Source of the DNA: Cognaticolwellia sediminilitoris | GTDB taxonomy: Bacteria > Pseudomonadota > Gammaproteobacteria > Enterobacterales > Alteromonadaceae | DNA length: 64,000 nt | Direction: 5' to 3' | Assembly: GCA_002104535.1 (NCBI GenBank) | Contig: NBOG01000006.1 | Span: 126,383-190,382, forward strand | Shown here: positions 3,367-21,491 of the stretch, piece by piece | Numbering within the stretch: the first letter of the stretch is position 1 | How the letters are laid out: every line of letters begins with the position of its first letter | Position numbers and translations under genes: made by a program | Notes under the pieces: model-generated | Databases searched by the model: none | The model's input: the letters and a program-made list of their open reading frames with translations, nothing else | What the model was told of the DNA's origin: nothing

Positions 3367-4890
3367 ATGACTTTAGCCTGTGTATTTAGTAGAGCTCGTA
3401 TCGGGCTCGAATCTCCTTTGGTGACAGTTGAAGTGCACTTGGCAAATGGATTGCCGGCATTCAATATTGTTGGTCTGCCTGAAACATCTGTCCGAGAAGC
3501 CAAAGATCGTGTCAGAAGCGCTATTATAAATTGTGGTTTTGAATTTCCCGCCAAACGTATCACCGTAAACTTAGCTCCTGCTGATTTGCCCAAAGAGGGC
3601 GGACGGTTTGATTTGCCTATCGCGTTAGGCATTCTTGCCGCAGCGTCACAGTTACCAGAAGCCGACTTAAGGCAATATGAATTTGCCGGGGAATTAGCGT
3701 TATCAGGAGAGTTGCGGGCAATTATTGGTGAAATTCCGTTGGCAATGGCCTGTAAAGAAAGTGGTCGTATTTTAGTCATACCCAGTGCTAATGCTGAACA
3801 AGCCAGTTGGGTACAAGGAGCAAAAATACTTAATTTAACGCATTTAAAGCAGCTATTTCCTCACTTTTTAAATCAACAAAGCTTGCCATTAGTGGCAACC
3901 AAAACCTTACAAGCCCATCAAAATATTATCGAACACGATATTGCTGAGGTTGTCGGACAGCCGCTAGCTAAAAGGGCTTTAGAAATTGCCGCAAGTGGTG
4001 GGCATAACCTGTTATTCATTGGTCCTCCTGGTACGGGGAAGACAATGTTAGCGAGTAGGTTGCCAGGTATTTTACCGCCAATGACTGAGCAAGAGGCGTT
4101 ATCGAGTGCTGCAATTCAATCGATTTGTCATAAAAACATCAGCCCTGACTCATGGTTAACTAGGCCATTTAGAGCGCCACATCATACCGCTTCTTCAGCG
4201 GCACTCGTTGGCGGTGGTAGTCATCCGCAGCCAGGTGAAATTTCCTTAGCGCATAATGGCGTACTTTTTCTAGATGAATTACCAGAATTTGAAAGAAAAG
4301 TACTCGATGTGTTGCGTGAACCCATGGAGTCAGGTGAAGTCACTATTTCTCGTGTTTTGATGAAACAAACTTTTCCAGCGCAATTTCAACTGGTTGCAGC
4401 AATGAACCCAAGCCCTACCGGTTTTTACAATGACAAGCGCAGTTCTCCTGAGCAAGTTTTACGTTATCTTAATCGGCTTTCAGGACCGTTTTTAGATCGA
4501 ATTGATATCCAAATTGAAGTCACCAGACTACCTCGTGGTATGTGGGCAAATGATAAAGGCAAGGCGGAATCGAGTCGCACCATTCAAAAAAGAGTCGCTA
4601 TTTGCCATCAAAGCCAAATATTACGTCAAGGTAAAGCGAATGCACAGCTAAGTAGTGCAGAAGTGAGAAGCTATTGCCAACTTGCGCCAGACGATAATGA
4701 ATTTTTGGAATTAGCGATAGAGAAACTAAATTTATCGACCAGAGCACATCATAAAATATTGAAAATTGCTCGGACACTGGCCGATATGGACGCGGTTGAA
4801 AACATTGAGCGCAAGTATTTAATTGAAGCCCTTTCATACCGCGCTATGGATAGAATTTTACGTCATTTAACTGAAGCAGTATCCGCGTGA
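3367..4890 (+). CDS. comM: YifB/ComM family Mg-chelatase-like AAA+ ATPase
   Basis: 507 residues, the family length. The N-terminal part (about 1-190) is the Lon-protease-like ChlI domain (HLANGLPAFNIVGLPET, ADLPKEGGRFDLPIALGIL). It is followed by an AAA+ Mg-chelatase domain with Walker A GPPGTGKT at 219-226 and Walker B GVLFLDELPEF near 300, then a C-terminal helical lid domain. In naturally competent bacteria ComM is a hexameric helicase promoting branch migration of integrating DNA; here that role is inferred from the family. It is divergent from the ilv operon, an arrangement also found in enterics (yifB beside ilvL), and its stop lies 4 bases from the stop of convergent ilvY. No strong ribosome-binding site is visible before the chosen ATG. 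Confidence 0.93.
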   Translation: MTLACVFSRARIGLESPLVTVEVHLANGLPAFNIVGLPETSVREAKDRVRSAIINCGFEFPAKRITVNLAPADLPKEGGRFDLPIALGILAAASQLPEADLRQYEFAGELALSGELRAIIGEIPLAMACKESGRILVIPSANAEQASWVQGAKILNLTHLKQLFPHFLNQQSLPLVATKTLQAHQNIIEHDIAEVVGQPLAKRALEIAASGGHNLLFIGPPGTGKTMLASRLPGILPPMTEQEALSSAAIQSICHKNISPDSWLTRPFRAPHHTASSAALVGGGSHPQPGEISLAHNGVLFLDELPEFERKVLDVLREPMESGEVTISRVLMKQTFPAQFQLVAAMNPSPTGFYNDKRSSPEQVLRYLNRLSGPFLDRIDIQIEVTRLPRGMWANDKGKAESSRTIQKRVAICHQSQILRQGKANAQLSSAEVRSYCQLAPDDNEFLELAIEKLNLSTRAHHKILKIARTLADMDAVENIERKYLIEALSYRAMDRILRHLTEAVSA

Positions 4891-16207: not shown

Positions 16208-18043
16208 TTATCTTTGTTTTTTTGTTGCTTCGCTCAAACGAGAAAGAAAAACATAAGGGTCAATATCTTGAATGTTAGGTGAATCAACCGAGCACTTAAT
16301 TTTAACGGAATGATCACCTAAATTTACAAAAAATCGGGTTTTTATTTCCTGTTGAATCCGACTTGATTTAATTAACACTTGTTCCGAAGTTTGGTGCGGG
16401 CACAACAGTAAGTATTCACCAGCACTAATAACGCCAGCGTAATCTTCCTCATCTATGTTTTCATTAATGATAACCGCAATTGCTTGAATTACATCATTTA
16501 AAATTTTCTTGCTAAAGTGAAAGTTTAACTCTTGCCAGTTTTCTACTTCTAAATAAACCACGGAGATATTGTATTGATATTTTCTCGCCATTTTATACTG
16601 CTGTTGATACCAACGCTTAGTTTGGGCGGGTTGCGCCAAGTGTGTTTTCGGTAACTCTATTTCATCATAACCACGGTTTAAGCGCTGCCTGTGTAAATTA
16701 AAGCTCCAATAGATCATAAACACTACACCACAACTCAATGCGATAGCTAATAAGTTGATCAGCATTTTTTGTCTAGCATACTTATCATTAAACTCTAGCC
16801 TCAGTTGACTCTCTTCAGCTAAGTTCAATGCTAATTGTTTTGTTTTACTGCTAGCAGATGACGCGTTAGCGGCAAATGTTTGCTTTAAGCTGACATTAGG
16901 GTAGAAACCTTGATATAAATTTAGATAGTGTTTAAGCGTGGTTAAAGCTTGCTCAAATTGACCTTGTTCAATGTAGTAATCTGTCAGCAATAAATACAAT
17001 TCTATTTGTTCATGAGATAACGTTATATTATTGGCGAGTGATTGAGCGTAAAGCAGGGCTGAATTGCCATCATCACGTTTATCCAAGGCATAAAAAGTTT
17101 TGACTAAAAATATTTGTGTCGATAATTTAAAGCGTAATAAATTATGTTGTTTGAAAACAGACTTGGCATTGAGTAAACGTTCTTTTGCCAAAGTAAACTG
17201 CTGCTGTTGATAAAGTACTTGACCAAGACCAAGTTCAGCATAGGCGATACGAATATTTAATTTAAACTGTTTAGCAAAGTGCAGTGATTTCCAAAATATA
17301 TTATAAGCATTATCGTATTGTTTTAGTTGATAGTATGCTTTCGCTAATAAGTGGTATGTTCTCGCGATACCTTGAGTTCTAGACATGCCGGCACGTAACG
17401 TTAAAACGCGATTAAGTAATTCCACCGCATTGTCATACTCTGACAAATAAAAGTGCGCTTCAGCTATTATTTCTAATAACGTTATTTGGTCTACACTTTG
17501 CTGATTTTGGCTTAATAAACCCTCTACTTTAGTTAATTTTTTAACTGCTAATGAATAATCTGCACTTAAGGCATGTGCTACTACAGAGTACGCAAGCGCT
17601 TGTAAATGGTAATCCATATTGTTGGCTTGTTCAGCCAGCAAAGCCGCGCTTTGTGAAGTTTCTAATAACGCCTGATAGTCACCTTGAGCATAGTAACCAC
17701 GAGCTATTTTTAGCAAAATATCTAGTTGTATATCAACATCTATTTTGTATATTTCACTACCATATTGTGCAAACTGGAACGCTGCTAATAAGTCACCACG
17801 ATTAAAAGCAACATCTGATAATATTGAAAAAGCTTTAGCTACTGTATTATGGCTATATTGATTACGATCGTTCACAACTGATTGGGCAATGTTGACGATA
17901 TCTTTTGTTATCAGCAACTCTTTATCTTGCTGATAAAGAGTATTGAGTAATTGATGGTAATTCTTATCGTTGTTTTGCGAAGTTGCTGCACTTGTTAGTG
18001 TGATGCAAAAACTGATTAATATACCCAATAGCAATTGCTTCAT
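16208..18043 (-). CDS. Periplasmic TPR sensor with a degenerate GGDEF domain
   Basis: 611 residues. A signal peptide (MKQLLLGILISFCITLTSAA) leads into a long series of TPR-like helical repeats (about 50-400), one membrane helix (about 420-443, LINLLAIALSCGVVFMIYW), then a cytoplasmic domain with the overall pattern of GGDEF proteins (WYQQQYKMARKYQYNISVVYLEVENWQELN). In place of GGDEF it has SAGEYLLL near 540, and the upstream D.LTGL.NR motif is not visible. It is therefore probably not a cyclase and may bind nucleotide or a partner instead. It faces away from the c-di-GMP riboswitch about 250 bases upstream, which lies on the other strand. Confidence 0.75.
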   Translation of the reverse strand: MKQLLLGILISFCITLTSAATSQNNDKNYHQLLNTLYQQDKELLITKDIVNIAQSVVNDRNQYSHNTVAKAFSILSDVAFNRGDLLAAFQFAQYGSEIYKIDVDIQLDILLKIARGYYAQGDYQALLETSQSAALLAEQANNMDYHLQALAYSVVAHALSADYSLAVKKLTKVEGLLSQNQQSVDQITLLEIIAEAHFYLSEYDNAVELLNRVLTLRAGMSRTQGIARTYHLLAKAYYQLKQYDNAYNIFWKSLHFAKQFKLNIRIAYAELGLGQVLYQQQQFTLAKERLLNAKSVFKQHNLLRFKLSTQIFLVKTFYALDKRDDGNSALLYAQSLANNITLSHEQIELYLLLTDYYIEQGQFEQALTTLKHYLNLYQGFYPNVSLKQTFAANASSASSKTKQLALNLAEESQLRLEFNDKYARQKMLINLLAIALSCGVVFMIYWSFNLHRQRLNRGYDEIELPKTHLAQPAQTKRWYQQQYKMARKYQYNISVVYLEVENWQELNFHFSKKILNDVIQAIAVIINENIDEEDYAGVISAGEYLLLCPHQTSEQVLIKSSRIQQEIKTRFFVNLGDHSVKIKCSVDSPNIQDIDPYVFLSRLSEATKKQR

Positions 18044-18252
18044 TGAAAGTGATGTCCCTATTTTATGGTTAGGATCAGTTTGCTCTTAAGGATAGGTTTT
18101 TTCAATTGTATCCTGTAAAAATTAAACATTAATAGTCGAATTTACTGCTTTTTATCAACTTTAGAAATATTCCTTAAAAGTTTAAACAGTCAATAAAATT
18201 GATAATATTTAATATGTTAACGTATATATAATCGCGGTAATATTAAAAGTTG

Positions 18253-18280
18253 TTTACAAATGAAATACTTTGCCTATAAT
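18253..18280 (+). promoter_or_regulatory. Sigma-70-type promoter of the riboswitch transcript
   Basis: TTTACA (18253-18258), a 16-base spacer and a consensus TATAAT (18275-18280) on the plus strand. This places the start point near 18287, just before a 9-bp hairpin (18285-18305) and the c-di-GMP aptamer. Confidence 0.7.
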
Positions 18281-18296
18281 CGTAGTTGAGCTTCTA

Positions 18297-18378
18297 AAGC
18301 TCGACAAGGGCAAATCTAGTGAAAACTGGAGACGCAAAGTTACCGATCTAAGGGGCAACCTATGATAGCGGAACTGCC
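18297..18378 (+). ncRNA. Cyclic-di-GMP class I (GEMM-I) riboswitch aptamer
   Basis: Core motifs in the right order: AGGGCAAA (18307-18314), a 5-bp stem CTAGT/ACTGG capped by the GNRA loop GAAA (18316-18329), then GACGCAAAG (18331-18339), then the second hairpin in which AGTT-A-CCG (18339-18345) pairs with CGGAACT (18369-18375) and which contains ATAGCGG. These match the Vc2-type consensus GGGCAAA, GAAA, GACGCAAAG, TAGCGG. It is read from the plus strand, but both flanking genes are on the minus strand, so no gene lies in sense directly downstream; the transcript would run antisense into the 3' end of the DUF885 gene. Confidence 0.85.
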
Positions 18379-18448
18379 AAATTTAGATATAGTGGGGGCT
18401 TATCTAAATTGAACAGTTCATTGTTATAAACCCCGGTATACTTTGCGT
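18371..18448 (+). promoter_or_regulatory. Putative expression platform of the c-di-GMP riboswitch
   Basis: A long hairpin pairs GAACTG (18371-18376) with CAGTTC (18414-18419) and AATTTAGATA (18380-18389) with TATCTAAATT (18401-18410); it would take the 3' strand of the aptamer helix. Downstream, 18434-18448 (CGGTATACTTTGCGT) is complementary to aptamer bases 18332-18345 over 14 pairs with one bulged base. Both structures compete with the folded aptamer. No T run follows the hairpin, so the mechanism is not plainly termination. Confidence 0.55.
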
Positions 18449-18469
18449 GCCTTCCTTTGTTTCCTGATT

Positions 18470-20248
18470 TTACTTTCCACCTAAATCAATCTTTTGTAAT
18501 TTTTTTGTTTCAACATATTCAATAATTAATTGTTCTAACATTGACAGTGGCATTGAACCATTTTTTAATACTTGATCATGAAACTCTCTTAAATCAAATG
18601 TTTCACCTAACTCCAACTCAGCCATTTTTCGGAGTTTTTTAATGGTTAACTCGCCCATTTTATAAGACAAAGCCTGACTTGGCCAAGAAATGTAACGGTC
18701 AATTTCAGTTTTAACATTATGCAGTGATAAGGCGGTATTATCTGCTAAGTAGTTCATAGCTTGTGCTCTACTCCAGCCTTTTGCATGCATACCAGTATCT
18801 ACCACTAATCGACAAGCTCTCCACATCTCGTAAGTTAATCGGCCAAAGTCGCTATAGGGACTTTGGTAAAAGCCAGCTTCTATGCCCAAGAATTCTGAAT
18901 AAAGTCCCCAACCTTCTCCAAATGCTGATATATAGGTATTATTTCTAAATTTAGGTACATCTTTCATTTCCCGAGCTAGTGAGCCCTGCAAATGATGACC
19001 GGGTACTGCTTCATGTAGAGTCAACGCTTCCAATACATACAGTGGTCGGCGATCTAATCGGTAAGTGTTGACCCAATAGTTACCTGGCTGGTCATCACGA
19101 GACGGACCTGAGTAGCGACCGGTGGTATATTTAGGTGCAATATTCGCAGGGACTTCTATCACTCCATAAGGAGTACGCGGTAGGGTTTTAAAAAACTTTG
19201 GTAGTTGAGCGTCCATTTTTTTAGCAATAAATGACGCTTCTTTTAATAAGCCCTCAGCACTAGTAGCATAGAACTGTTTATCGGTACGTAAGAAGTGAAC
19301 AAATTCTGCAAAAGTACCGGCAAAACCTAGTTTTTTTATTATTGCATCCATTTCTAGTCTGATACGACGAACTTCTTTTAACCCTGTTTCGTGCACGTCA
19401 TCAACAGTTATGTCTAGCGTAGTGTAGTGCTGTAACCTATTCAGATAATAAGCATCGCCATTAGGTAAAGAGCTAGCGGCGATATTATCCCTAGCATTGG
19501 GTTGGTAACGATTAACCATATAGTCATAATACTTTTGATAGCTAGGCATAACTGTATTCAAAATGATGCCTTTTGCTTCAGTTTGTAATGTTTGCGTTAA
19601 CTCTGCAGTAAAGTGCTCAGGCATTTTTTCGAAAGGTTGATAATAAGTACTTGTTGTCGCGTCGGTTTTTATAAATGCTTTAATCGACTCTTCAAAACCT
19701 TGCAGCACTACTTTTGGTTGAGTTATTCCAGCATCAATACCTTTATCCATCCAGTACATTTGTTGAGTAAAGTAATTTGGCAGTGCAGTTAATCTTGCTA
19801 AATAATCACGATAGTCTTGTTCTGTGTTAAAGCTCACTTGGCGATTAATTCTGCTTATCCAAACATGAAAGCCAGACTCTGCCGTTAAAGGCATGTAATG
19901 TTCGTTATTGGTATAATTATCGAGTTGATTTTTTATTGTGTAGGCCAGTACTGCATGATTAATCGATTCATCTGAATTGAGTTTTTCAGTTTTAATCTGT
20001 GTTAGTTTTTGGTAGATCGTACTTAAATCCAAGTGTTGCTTTTTAAGGTTATCTGGAGATAAATCAGGCAAAAGGCGATTTGTAGCTCCAGCTTTATCTA
20101 GATTAAATGGACTTTGTTGTTCTTTAAATTGCTGGTAATCACTAATAACCTGCTCGAGATCTTGATTTTCAGTACTGATTTTAGATTTTGTAGACTGGCA
20201 TGCCACAAGGAAAAATAAGGTAAATATCACAATTGAAAGCGTTTTCAT
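18470..20248 (-). CDS. DUF885 family lipoprotein, putative metallopeptidase
   Basis: 592 residues from ATG 20248; a TTG 12 bases earlier is a poorer start. A lipoprotein signal (MKTLSIVIFTLFFLVAC, lipobox LVAC) anchors it in the envelope. The DUF885 domain has the HEAVPGHHLQG motif, an HExxH-like zinc site variant shared by the family, with downstream FGEGWGLYSE, WRACRLVVDTGMHAKGWSR and EIDRYISWPSQALSYKMGE. A peptidase or carboxypeptidase role is presumed for the family. A second, secreted paralogue lies at 44759-46501. Its 3' end is overlapped by the antisense riboswitch transcript if that runs past 18470. Confidence 0.85.
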   Translation of the reverse strand: MKTLSIVIFTLFFLVACQSTKSKISTENQDLEQVISDYQQFKEQQSPFNLDKAGATNRLLPDLSPDNLKKQHLDLSTIYQKLTQIKTEKLNSDESINHAVLAYTIKNQLDNYTNNEHYMPLTAESGFHVWISRINRQVSFNTEQDYRDYLARLTALPNYFTQQMYWMDKGIDAGITQPKVVLQGFEESIKAFIKTDATTSTYYQPFEKMPEHFTAELTQTLQTEAKGIILNTVMPSYQKYYDYMVNRYQPNARDNIAASSLPNGDAYYLNRLQHYTTLDITVDDVHETGLKEVRRIRLEMDAIIKKLGFAGTFAEFVHFLRTDKQFYATSAEGLLKEASFIAKKMDAQLPKFFKTLPRTPYGVIEVPANIAPKYTTGRYSGPSRDDQPGNYWVNTYRLDRRPLYVLEALTLHEAVPGHHLQGSLAREMKDVPKFRNNTYISAFGEGWGLYSEFLGIEAGFYQSPYSDFGRLTYEMWRACRLVVDTGMHAKGWSRAQAMNYLADNTALSLHNVKTEIDRYISWPSQALSYKMGELTIKKLRKMAELELGETFDLREFHDQVLKNGSMPLSMLEQLIIEYVETKKLQKIDLGGK

Positions 20249-20477
20249 TTTATATCTCAATGATAAATTAAGTACGAATTGACTAGATTAATACCATAAC
20301 AAAACCTAAGTTTTAATACAGTGAATATTTATATGCTGTAAGAATTGCACTTTAGGTACATTTTATCGGACTTATTGATGATTTTAACCATTTTATTATA
20401 GCGTTTTTAAGTAAATTACTAGAGAATGACATACCAGCTATTATTGTAGCGAATGTTGTAGGTTGAAGGTTGGAATA

Positions 20478-21491
20478 GTGCAGTATCGAGATTCCATAGA
20501 AAAGTCTGAGCAAATAATGCATGCCGCCATAAAGCAATTACAATTATGGCATATACCTTCGACGCCAATTAATTATGCCGTTTGTTATAGTTACCTCTCT
20601 AAAAACTCCAAACAACTTAATGCTGTCATTGAAAAAAAAATAGCCAGTGGTAAACCTTTCGATAACTTTTTTTTAGAAGAAGTCTATCGTGCTTATGTTC
20701 TAGGTCAAAGCGCGTTTCGTACTGAGCTGATTGAAGATCTCGATGATGTTTTGGTTGATATAGAATCAAATAATAAGAAATCTTCACAATGCACAAAGCG
20801 TTTAGTGTCCGAACTGGATACAAATATTGCGAGTTTAAAGTCTACAGACAGGCATGAAGTATATAACGCGATTAAAAACATACGTAAAACGACTCAGCAA
20901 TTTAAGCTTGAGCAAGAAAAATTGGCGAATCAATTACTGCTAACCAAAAAATCAACTAACGCTTTACGATCAGAATTAGACGACGTAAAAAAAGAAATTT
21001 ACTTAGATCCACTTACCGGACTTTATAATCGTAAATCAATGACCAAACATTTAGAGCTTTGGTTATCTGAAGATCCTGCGAAAAAAGTTGCAGCTATCGT
21101 TATTAATATTGATCAATTTTCAAAAATAAACACACAATTAGGTCCTGTAATTAGTGACGTATTACTCAGTAAAATAGCAAATAAGGTTAACAGTTATGTC
21201 GGTGACAGTGGCTTGCCAATAAGGTCAGCTGGTGATGAGTTTTTAATTTTATTACCTGATGTTGAACGTTATATTGCCGGTGAAATTGCTGAAAAAATTC
21301 GTCAAGGTGTTGAAAAATTAAGATTTATTAGCAGTAAGTCAGGTAGTCGCTTACCTCCGATGACATTAAGTATTGGGGTCAATGATTATCACGTTGCCAC
21401 GAGTGCTAACGCAATTATTAATGAAACACGAGCACTAATAAATCAGGCAAATAAACCTTTAACAAATCATGTTAATGTTGCTAATAATTAG
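20478..21491 (+). CDS. Diguanylate cyclase (GGDEF) with an AGDEF active site
   Basis: 337 residues from GTG 20478, which has GAAGG about 9 bases upstream; an in-frame TTG at 20463 is less likely. The N-terminal 170 residues are helical, without membrane segments and with a coiled-coil-like stretch (about 130-175). They are followed by a GGDEF domain: DPLTGLYNRKSM (about 177-188), VINIDQFSKIN, and the signature SAGDEFLILLPD (AGDEF 251-255), then SIGVNDYH. The first Gly of the signature is replaced by Ala, a variant that can remain active. No EAL domain is present. It is soluble, makes c-di-GMP if active, and lies about 2 kb from the c-di-GMP riboswitch. Confidence 0.85.
   Translation: MQYRDSIEKSEQIMHAAIKQLQLWHIPSTPINYAVCYSYLSKNSKQLNAVIEKKIASGKPFDNFFLEEVYRAYVLGQSAFRTELIEDLDDVLVDIESNNKKSSQCTKRLVSELDTNIASLKSTDRHEVYNAIKNIRKTTQQFKLEQEKLANQLLLTKKSTNALRSELDDVKKEIYLDPLTGLYNRKSMTKHLELWLSEDPAKKVAAIVINIDQFSKINTQLGPVISDVLLSKIANKVNSYVGDSGLPIRSAGDEFLILLPDVERYIAGEIAEKIRQGVEKLRFISSKSGSRLPPMTLSIGVNDYHVATSANAIINETRALINQANKPLTNHVNVANN

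Follow-up and report, generated by a model that had tools for sequence, protein, structure and literature searches.

A 64,000-nucleotide stretch of the Cognaticolwellia sediminilitoris genome (GenBank assembly GCA_002104535.1, contig NBOG01000006.1, positions 126,383 to 190,382 of the forward strand; hereafter 'the window', with position 1 as its first letter) carries a conserved RNA, built around a class I (GEMM-I) aptamer for cyclic di-GMP (c-di-GMP), that we read as an autonomous noncoding RNA gene; that is, mainly a regulatory RNA in its own right and not the leader of any one gene. We put the probability of this reading at roughly 60%. The match to the aptamer, the conservation of the whole RNA, a conserved alternative pairing and independence from neighbouring genes are each supported by computation. 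The feature, at about 18288-18461, is longer than the aptamer noted in the first-pass annotation, its ends being set from the promoter and from conservation, with the aptamer making up the 5' half (Table 1). The idea of a stand-alone RNA, raised there as one of several, gains strong support, as the RNA is conserved on its own in relatives whose neighbouring genes change.

The aptamer itself had been claimed from its motifs, and a covariance-model search bears this out: the Rfam model RF01051 (c-di-GMP-I, GEMM-I) scores 79.1 bits where its gathering score is 35, with E 6.8e-14 for the 64-kb scan; the match spans the full model (1-87) and is the window's sole Rfam match above gathering score, and an E-value scan of 18240-18520 found no families outside the c-di-GMP-I clan. 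From its sequence, the aptamer would be expected to bind c-di-GMP. The consensus-like promoter said to lie in front of it was likewise recovered, as TTTACA-16-TATAAT with 11 of 12 consensus positions; promoter-like sites as such are not above chance in the 4.6 kb scanned (16, against 17.8 in shuffles), and this is the only one of the 16 to reach that score. A promoter-like site stands at the equivalent place in 64 of the 69 loci with enough flank, the window counted.

To describe the RNA beyond the aptamer we used 48 loci gathered by a pattern in which the aptamer core is followed by a G-rich motif seen downstream in relatives, which by record title belong mostly to Colwellia, Cognaticolwellia, Thalassotalea, Thalassomonas, Litorilituus and uncultured Alteromonadaceae. 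The alignment consists of the window and 47 of these (one, with too short a flank, L063, was dropped), with 3' ends set by the position of a CUUUGC motif. Four elements are common to the aligned sequences: a 5' hairpin that starts right after the promoter, then the aptamer, next a second hairpin whose loop is G-rich, and last a 3' strand with CUUUGC; that motif is present in 48 of 48 (CUUUGCG in 44), and the G-rich loop is near-invariant (UAGUGGGGGCU, with CAGUGGGGGCU in a few sequences). The constancy of AGUGGGGGC across the 48 loci is by construction, because the search pattern required it; an independent check comes from 32 loci fetched with RF01051 alone, the loop motif not being required, among which all 17 linked to a TPR-GGDEF gene (our own included) carry AGUGGGGGCUU.

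The conservation profile of 69 loci goes up at the -35 and -10 elements, stays high between about 18292 and 18401 and is so once more over 18442-18451, falls at about 18462, and then climbs to about 0.6 within the DUF885 gene that follows on the other strand. Across 42 sequences the pair counts show covariation: 15 of the 31 pairs have changed on both sides, and paired cells make up 97.8%; none of 500 shuffles reaches either value, and structures slid along the alignment give at most 40.9% paired cells and 4 such pairs. Helices 1 and 6, both of which lie outside the aptamer, are among those with changes on both sides. A small open reading frame (ORF) in the 3' half of the window's RNA (ATG...TGA, 16 codons) was considered and rejected; its ATG is ACG, AAG or AGG in some relatives.

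Table 1. Features of the RNA and its surroundings, in window coordinates (model R1, of the whole RNA, was built with the window sequence included, so that its 201.8 bits is the score of a training member).
Feature	Position	Strand	Evidence
Whole conserved RNA, ~174 nucleotides (nt), predicted transcript	18288-18461	+	Conservation profile; model R1, 201.8 bits
5'-end hairpin GAGCUUCUAAAGCUC	18288-18302	+	Helix 1: 94.7% of cells paired, 3/5 pairs changed on both sides
c-di-GMP-I (GEMM-I) aptamer	18299-18381	+	RF01051, 79.1 bits
5' strand of putative long-range helix P0, GACAAGGG	18303-18310	+	Folding, swap test
Aptamer core GACGCAAAGUUACCG, strand covered in the predicted rod fold	18331-18345	+	Folding, duplex test
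Hairpin AGAUA/UAUCU with 11-nt loop UAGUGGGGGCU	18385-18405	+	Helix 6: 97.6% paired, 4/5 pairs changed on both sides
Putative anti-aptamer strand CGGUAUACUUUGCG	18434-18447	+	CUUUGC conservation, duplex z
GUGC-polypyrimidine tail, including P0 3' strand (18454-18461)	18447-18461	+	Swap test, pseudoknot test
Promoter TTTACA-16-TATAAT	18253-18280	+	Promoter-site scan, 11/12 consensus positions
TPR protein with weak GGDEF domain, divergent neighbour	16208-18043	-	PF13424; PF00990, 30.1 bits
DUF885 protein, convergent neighbour	18470-20260	-	PF05960, 566.8 bits
Diguanylate cyclase (GGDEF), on the RNA's strand, beyond DUF885	20463-21491	+	PF00990, 92.7 bits

The window RNA is predicted to fold as a long rod, the 3' half lying over both the aptamer core and the 5' strand of the aptamer; relative to shuffles, the fold of 18287-18520 has a z of -4.2. 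For a 175-nt RNA the rod comes to -63.7 kcal/mol, and a fold in which the aptamer is enforced to -46.6. Folding by length suggests an order of events, the aptamer helices being best at 90-105 and 120-125 nt, though not at 110-115, and the rod displacing them between about 130 and 160 nt, with the exchange complete near 160 nt. With tails cut at a fixed distance behind CUUUGC, z for the duplex of the anti-aptamer strand with the core averages -4.1 and lies below -2 in every one of the 48 sequences; the average is +0.26 for control GEMM-I riboswitches (15 named; 12 scored in this test and 11 in the whole-fold test).

A further long-range helix, which we call P0, pairs GANAAGGG with a CCCUUNUC-like tail. 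Across 59 sequences, pairings of a 5' strand with its own tail average -8.8 kcal/mol and swapped ones -7.8 (0 of 5000 permutations as low), a gap that may partly reflect kinship, since the swap leaves shared ancestry in. The interaction energy of the whole molecule falls below z -1.65 in 44 of the 59, and a GYYYYY stretch lies within 14 nt of CUUUGC in 52 of them (shuffled mean 30.9, maximum 38); in all three tests, one sequence (L045) was anchored on a second, further-down CUUUGC. The last result would fit a pseudoknot between the GGGGGC loop and the pyrimidine tail, which we do not take beyond an idea, since those pyrimidines are also the partners of AAGGG in P0.

Synthesising these observations, we infer ligand binding, a kinetic switch, termination and action in trans, as follows. 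The aptamer would fold first, during transcription; with c-di-GMP bound it would stay folded and leave the 3' tail free, perhaps to pair with the G-rich loop, whilst without ligand the 3' half would invade the aptamer and the RNA close into the long rod, which may also serve as a terminator. Most likely, then, c-di-GMP traps the aptamer during transcription and so blocks closing into the rod, such that its level would be reported by the shape of the RNA and probably also by its length. We regard the G-rich loop as the best candidate for an effector, and the pyrimidine-rich tail suggests that the loop has an internal partner as well. The full proposal, of a free-standing class of c-di-GMP-gated RNA with the aptamer as sensor, the 3' anti-aptamer strand as switch and the G-rich loop as an effector that pairs with the tail or with a partner RNA or protein, is tentative, and we would give it not quite even odds. 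Another reading is a sink or reservoir for c-di-GMP, like that proposed for merRNA of Bdellovibrio in PMC3627812, and an aptamer within a noncoding RNA behind a near-consensus promoter is what such a role would look like; a sink has no need of an anti-aptamer strand or a constant loop, yet both are conserved, and we hold it to be very improbable.

Of 395 genomes sampled within the GTDB family, 100, belonging to 18 genera (both totals counted by hand), have a match to model R1 of at least 125 bits, and the other matches in that search lie at 94 bits and below. When 394 genomes were sampled over the order, all matches of at least 125 bits fell inside the family; the best outside it score 99, 91 and 85 bits, none reaching 100. 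The GGGGGC loop was found behind the aptamer in none of nine loci checked from outside the family, and of four such loci with ORFs listed (at least 100 amino acids), three have a sense ORF that starts 122-176 nt on, and one has it at 552 nt.

Just under the score gap are divergent relatives from inside the family, L191 (92 bits), L192 (94) and L193 (86). The first keeps the loop and the CUUUGC strand. In the other two (genomes G283 and G412) the 5' hairpin, the GEMM-I aptamer and the GGGGGC core of the loop are kept, and the RNA finishes with a strong hairpin and its T-rich run, ahead of a convergent DUF885 gene that has a GGDEF gene beyond it; this may be an older version of the RNA whose termination does not depend on ligand. 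In a record titled Endozoicomonas sp. G2_1 (L045) both the RNA and the gene order are those of Colwelliaceae, and the organism name may therefore be wrong.

How far the RNA depends on its neighbours was judged from 72 distinct fetched loci, which do not cover all of the 100 genomes; L063, L182 (altered core) and L194 (an ordinary GEMM-I) did not match the pattern used in this count. Upstream, a TPR-GGDEF gene is present in 61 of the 72, was not found in 10 and is cut off in one. Downstream there is a convergent DUF885 gene in 49, a sense GGDEF gene in 20 and neither in two, the remaining locus being cut off. On a quick tree of 59 TPR-GGDEF proteins, the alternative between DUF885 and GGDEF needs 7 changes, at least 3 of which are forced by starred branches. 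Single loci go further: at L184 the RNA is flanked by DUF885 and by a gene similar to that for the window's acyl-CoA thioesterase, and neither of the GGDEF genes turned up in the 8 kb; at L066 it faces an RNase_T-family exonuclease gene (Pfam was run on this copy only), which we take for an oligoribonuclease; and at L069 it lies between genes for a 2-hydroxyacid dehydrogenase and a UvrD/Rep helicase, none of the three usual neighbours being found in 8 kb. Conversely, four of 17 genomes of the genus, without a full RNA match (G007, G011, G012 and G013), keep TPR-GGDEF, DUF885 and GGDEF in order, although the GGDEF match of G012 is in pieces in different frames. Because each neighbour is missing at some loci that have the RNA, and four genomes have the neighbours without it, we conclude that the RNA is a genetic unit of its own and not the remnant of a lost gene. 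Oligoribonuclease clears pGpG, the breakdown product of c-di-GMP, and in some Colwellia a gene of this likeness in the RNase_T family adjoins either the RNA (L066) or the DUF885 gene beside it (L058).

Two accounts offered at the outset are not favoured by this comparison. Loss of a former downstream gene had seemed the simplest alternative; as the main account it lacks support, since the 3' half has itself been strictly kept and the RNA has persisted while its neighbours changed repeatedly. More broadly, that the element might be the decaying remnant of a lost leader, or merely a bidirectional terminator, would suit its convergent position, and what we read as decay is visible in the altered aptamer of L182 and in the gap of G013, which on our reading of the sequence holds decayed remnants of the RNA; set against covariation, a constant loop, a conserved promoter and a spread over 18 genera, the notion is scarcely credible.

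Antisense control of DUF885 is the second, in which read-through of the RNA would silence that gene from its 3' end, as proposed in general terms for antisense-acting riboswitches in PMC9943018. In the window the DUF885 stop codon lies 8 nt past the conserved end of the RNA, well inside the distance (opposite-strand gene within 500 nt) by which that survey classes a riboswitch as antisense, and DUF885 is convergent within 800 nt in 49 of the 72 loci, as also in the divergent L191-L193 and in the g76 loci. The conserved RNA nevertheless stops before the DUF885 coding sequence in the window; and because at least 22 of the 72 loci have no DUF885 gene adjoining the RNA, while the aligned 3' half looks unchanged there, the account is unsupported as a conserved function. 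With the 7 neighbour changes on the tree, conservation of a target along with its riboswitch is not what is seen. We judge this explanation improbable.

Several results weigh against the reading of a self-acting RNA and should be set beside those that favour it. The whole-fold interaction is not clearly beyond shuffles in 15 of the 59 sequences, two of which are positive, and 4 of the 11 control riboswitches scored also have low interaction energy, as would be expected if ordinary riboswitches, too, have expression platforms. In the window the rod is not followed by a canonical U-run terminator, and a simple scan of the plus strand found none. The quick TPR-GGDEF tree carries long-branch warnings, and L069 is a single metagenome bin that could be misassembled. 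L182 retains the 3' half and yet carries an altered aptamer. At that locus (3980-4230, genome G307) the promoter, the 5' hairpin, the G-loop hairpin and the CUUUGC strand are kept while the aptamer reads AACGCAAA with a changed core, which makes it a natural case for asking whether the 3' half works without ligand. Nor was a trans target found, in a search, by pattern only, of complements of the G-rich loop. A further point is the sense GGDEF gene behind the RNA in 20 of the 72 loci, at a gap of 96-313 nt; in all 20, 13 or more of 50 shuffles do as well as the best promoter-like site in that gap. The comparison with relatives, which had been suggested as the means of learning whether a gene once followed the RNA or the RNA is conserved alone, thus came out for an RNA conserved alone, but with this sense ORF, of the sort named there as evidence against that idea, at part of the loci.

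Since a sense GGDEF gene follows in those loci, a leader role in some lineages survives as a rival: a cis riboswitch for the diguanylate cyclase, in which ligand prevents the terminator, transcription continues into the GGDEF gene and the product feeds back on c-di-GMP. In many lineages the transcript would then have to cross the antisense DUF885 gene, as in a non-contiguous operon, and a GGDEF gene does lie beyond DUF885 in 18 of the 30 DUF885 loci with enough flank, the divergent L191-L193 among the loci of this kind. No GGDEF gene was found downstream in the other 12 of the 30 (L183-L185 included), nor at L066 and L069; L192 and L193 have their strong hairpin and T-rich run behind the loop and before DUF885; and a plain leader would need no near-invariant G-rich loop. 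The RNA is kept where no GGDEF gene was found downstream, and we therefore favour a self-acting RNA and place the cis leader, which we think unlikely, second.

With a promoter-like sequence of its own and the outline of a discrete conserved unit, the RNA has, judged by sequence, some of the features looked for in a trans-acting small RNA. Complements of the G-rich loop with at most one mismatch number 28 in its own genome, against 25 for the reversed control; one match, at dnaK, falls in what we take to be a heat-shock promoter. A 10-bp match over the start codon of rho was considered as a target and rejected as unsupported. Among the rho leaders of relatives (matched in 57 of 80 genomes), those from RNA-bearing genomes differ in their C-rich stretch whilst the loop of the RNA is constant, and a similar C-rich leader is also found in genomes without the RNA, which counts against rho. 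Within the genus, among the leaders read, CCCCC occurs in 12 of 12 RNA-bearing genomes (CCCCCAC in 10) and in one of four RNA-lacking ones, which may be one clade. At L109 and in many other genomes, a C-rich leader (AAGAAACCCCCACTATG or AAGACCCACCAATATG, for example) stands ahead of the rho start, and no obvious Shine-Dalgarno sequence was seen at the expected place in the leaders read. Three RNA-lacking genomes of the same genus (G007:C139, G011:C43 and G012:C35) have a second, shorter Rho-like ORF of 317 amino acids, with 47-48% identity.

As a sign of targets more generally, CCCCCAC within 20 nt of an ATG was also rejected. It occurs 20 times against 15 for the reversed control in the window's own genome, and 36/22, 40/15, 81/67, 16/11 and 21/15 times in five other RNA-bearing genomes; summed by hand over 40 more, it comes to 475 against 376 in 20 RNA-bearing genomes and 1066 against 688 in 20 RNA-lacking ones. 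The excess is no sign of targets, because it is larger where the RNA is absent, and this too belongs with the points against action in trans.

As for the surroundings of the RNA in the window, both flanking genes lie on the opposite strand, as the first-pass annotation stated. It placed the element between a degenerate-GGDEF protein and a diguanylate cyclase: the former is indeed a flank (by our own reading of the sequence it has SAGEY at the expected GGDEF position), but the latter is not an immediate neighbour, because DUF885 intervenes. No plus-strand ORF of at least 80 amino acids was found to start within 900 nt downstream of the RNA in the window. The genome has three GEMM-I elements in total, and the other two are of the ordinary kind, with short sense ORFs that start 87 and 125 nt behind the aptamer core. 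These two elements (L002 and L003) precede similar proteins of about 120 amino acids, with a signal-peptide-like start and the common motif ...RSFLKTNKLKIRNIF...

The usual reading of a c-di-GMP-I riboswitch is that it leads the gene behind it. The window's aptamer is of this known kind, matching the full RF01051 model, whereas the RNA around it has no adjoining sense gene and adds a conserved 5' hairpin, a G-loop hairpin and an anti-aptamer tail; it is this conserved stand-alone architecture that is new. We recognised no published description of it in the literature searched, which took in few subscription journals and no bioRxiv preprints. If our reading is right, a second-messenger signal becomes RNA regulation without a downstream gene, and, as the family is spread over 18 genera, mostly marine and including some named cultured species, c-di-GMP signalling through RNA in trans becomes testable.

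Of known systems, the closest in kind is merRNA of Bdellovibrio bacteriovorus, the one stand-alone case met in the literature searched, for which a speculative storage role has been proposed; that report (PMC3627812) describes a noncoding RNA that includes a c-di-GMP riboswitch and is followed by no conserved ORF. In the RNA family described here no single ORF stands behind all loci, yet GGDEF stands behind 20 of 72. By the same description merRNA is 445 nt long and its authors report no conservation outside Bdellovibrio, whereas the window's RNA, compared with it by description, is about 174 nt long and has a conserved switching half in 18 genera. The PMC9943018 survey finds the c-di-GMP family to be the most prone to lie opposite a neighbouring gene (152 antisense cases), and names as an example, for a riboswitch that may or may not be of the c-di-GMP class, a Colwellia sp. 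PAMC 21821 gene of unknown function, which could belong to the DUF885 locus. There the opposite-strand gene is taken as the target, whilst here that gene is dispensable; an element that such a survey would class as antisense-acting can thus be a genetic unit of its own. Finally, GEMM-type riboswitches are, by PMC9262584, under kinetic control: in the pilM riboswitch the aptamer fold is the antiterminator and the terminator uses an aptamer strand. That switch is described for an mRNA, whereas the window's RNA has no adjoining sense gene and its termination is a proposal; the aptamer fold as antiterminator, a terminator that draws on an aptamer strand and kinetic control are what the two would share.

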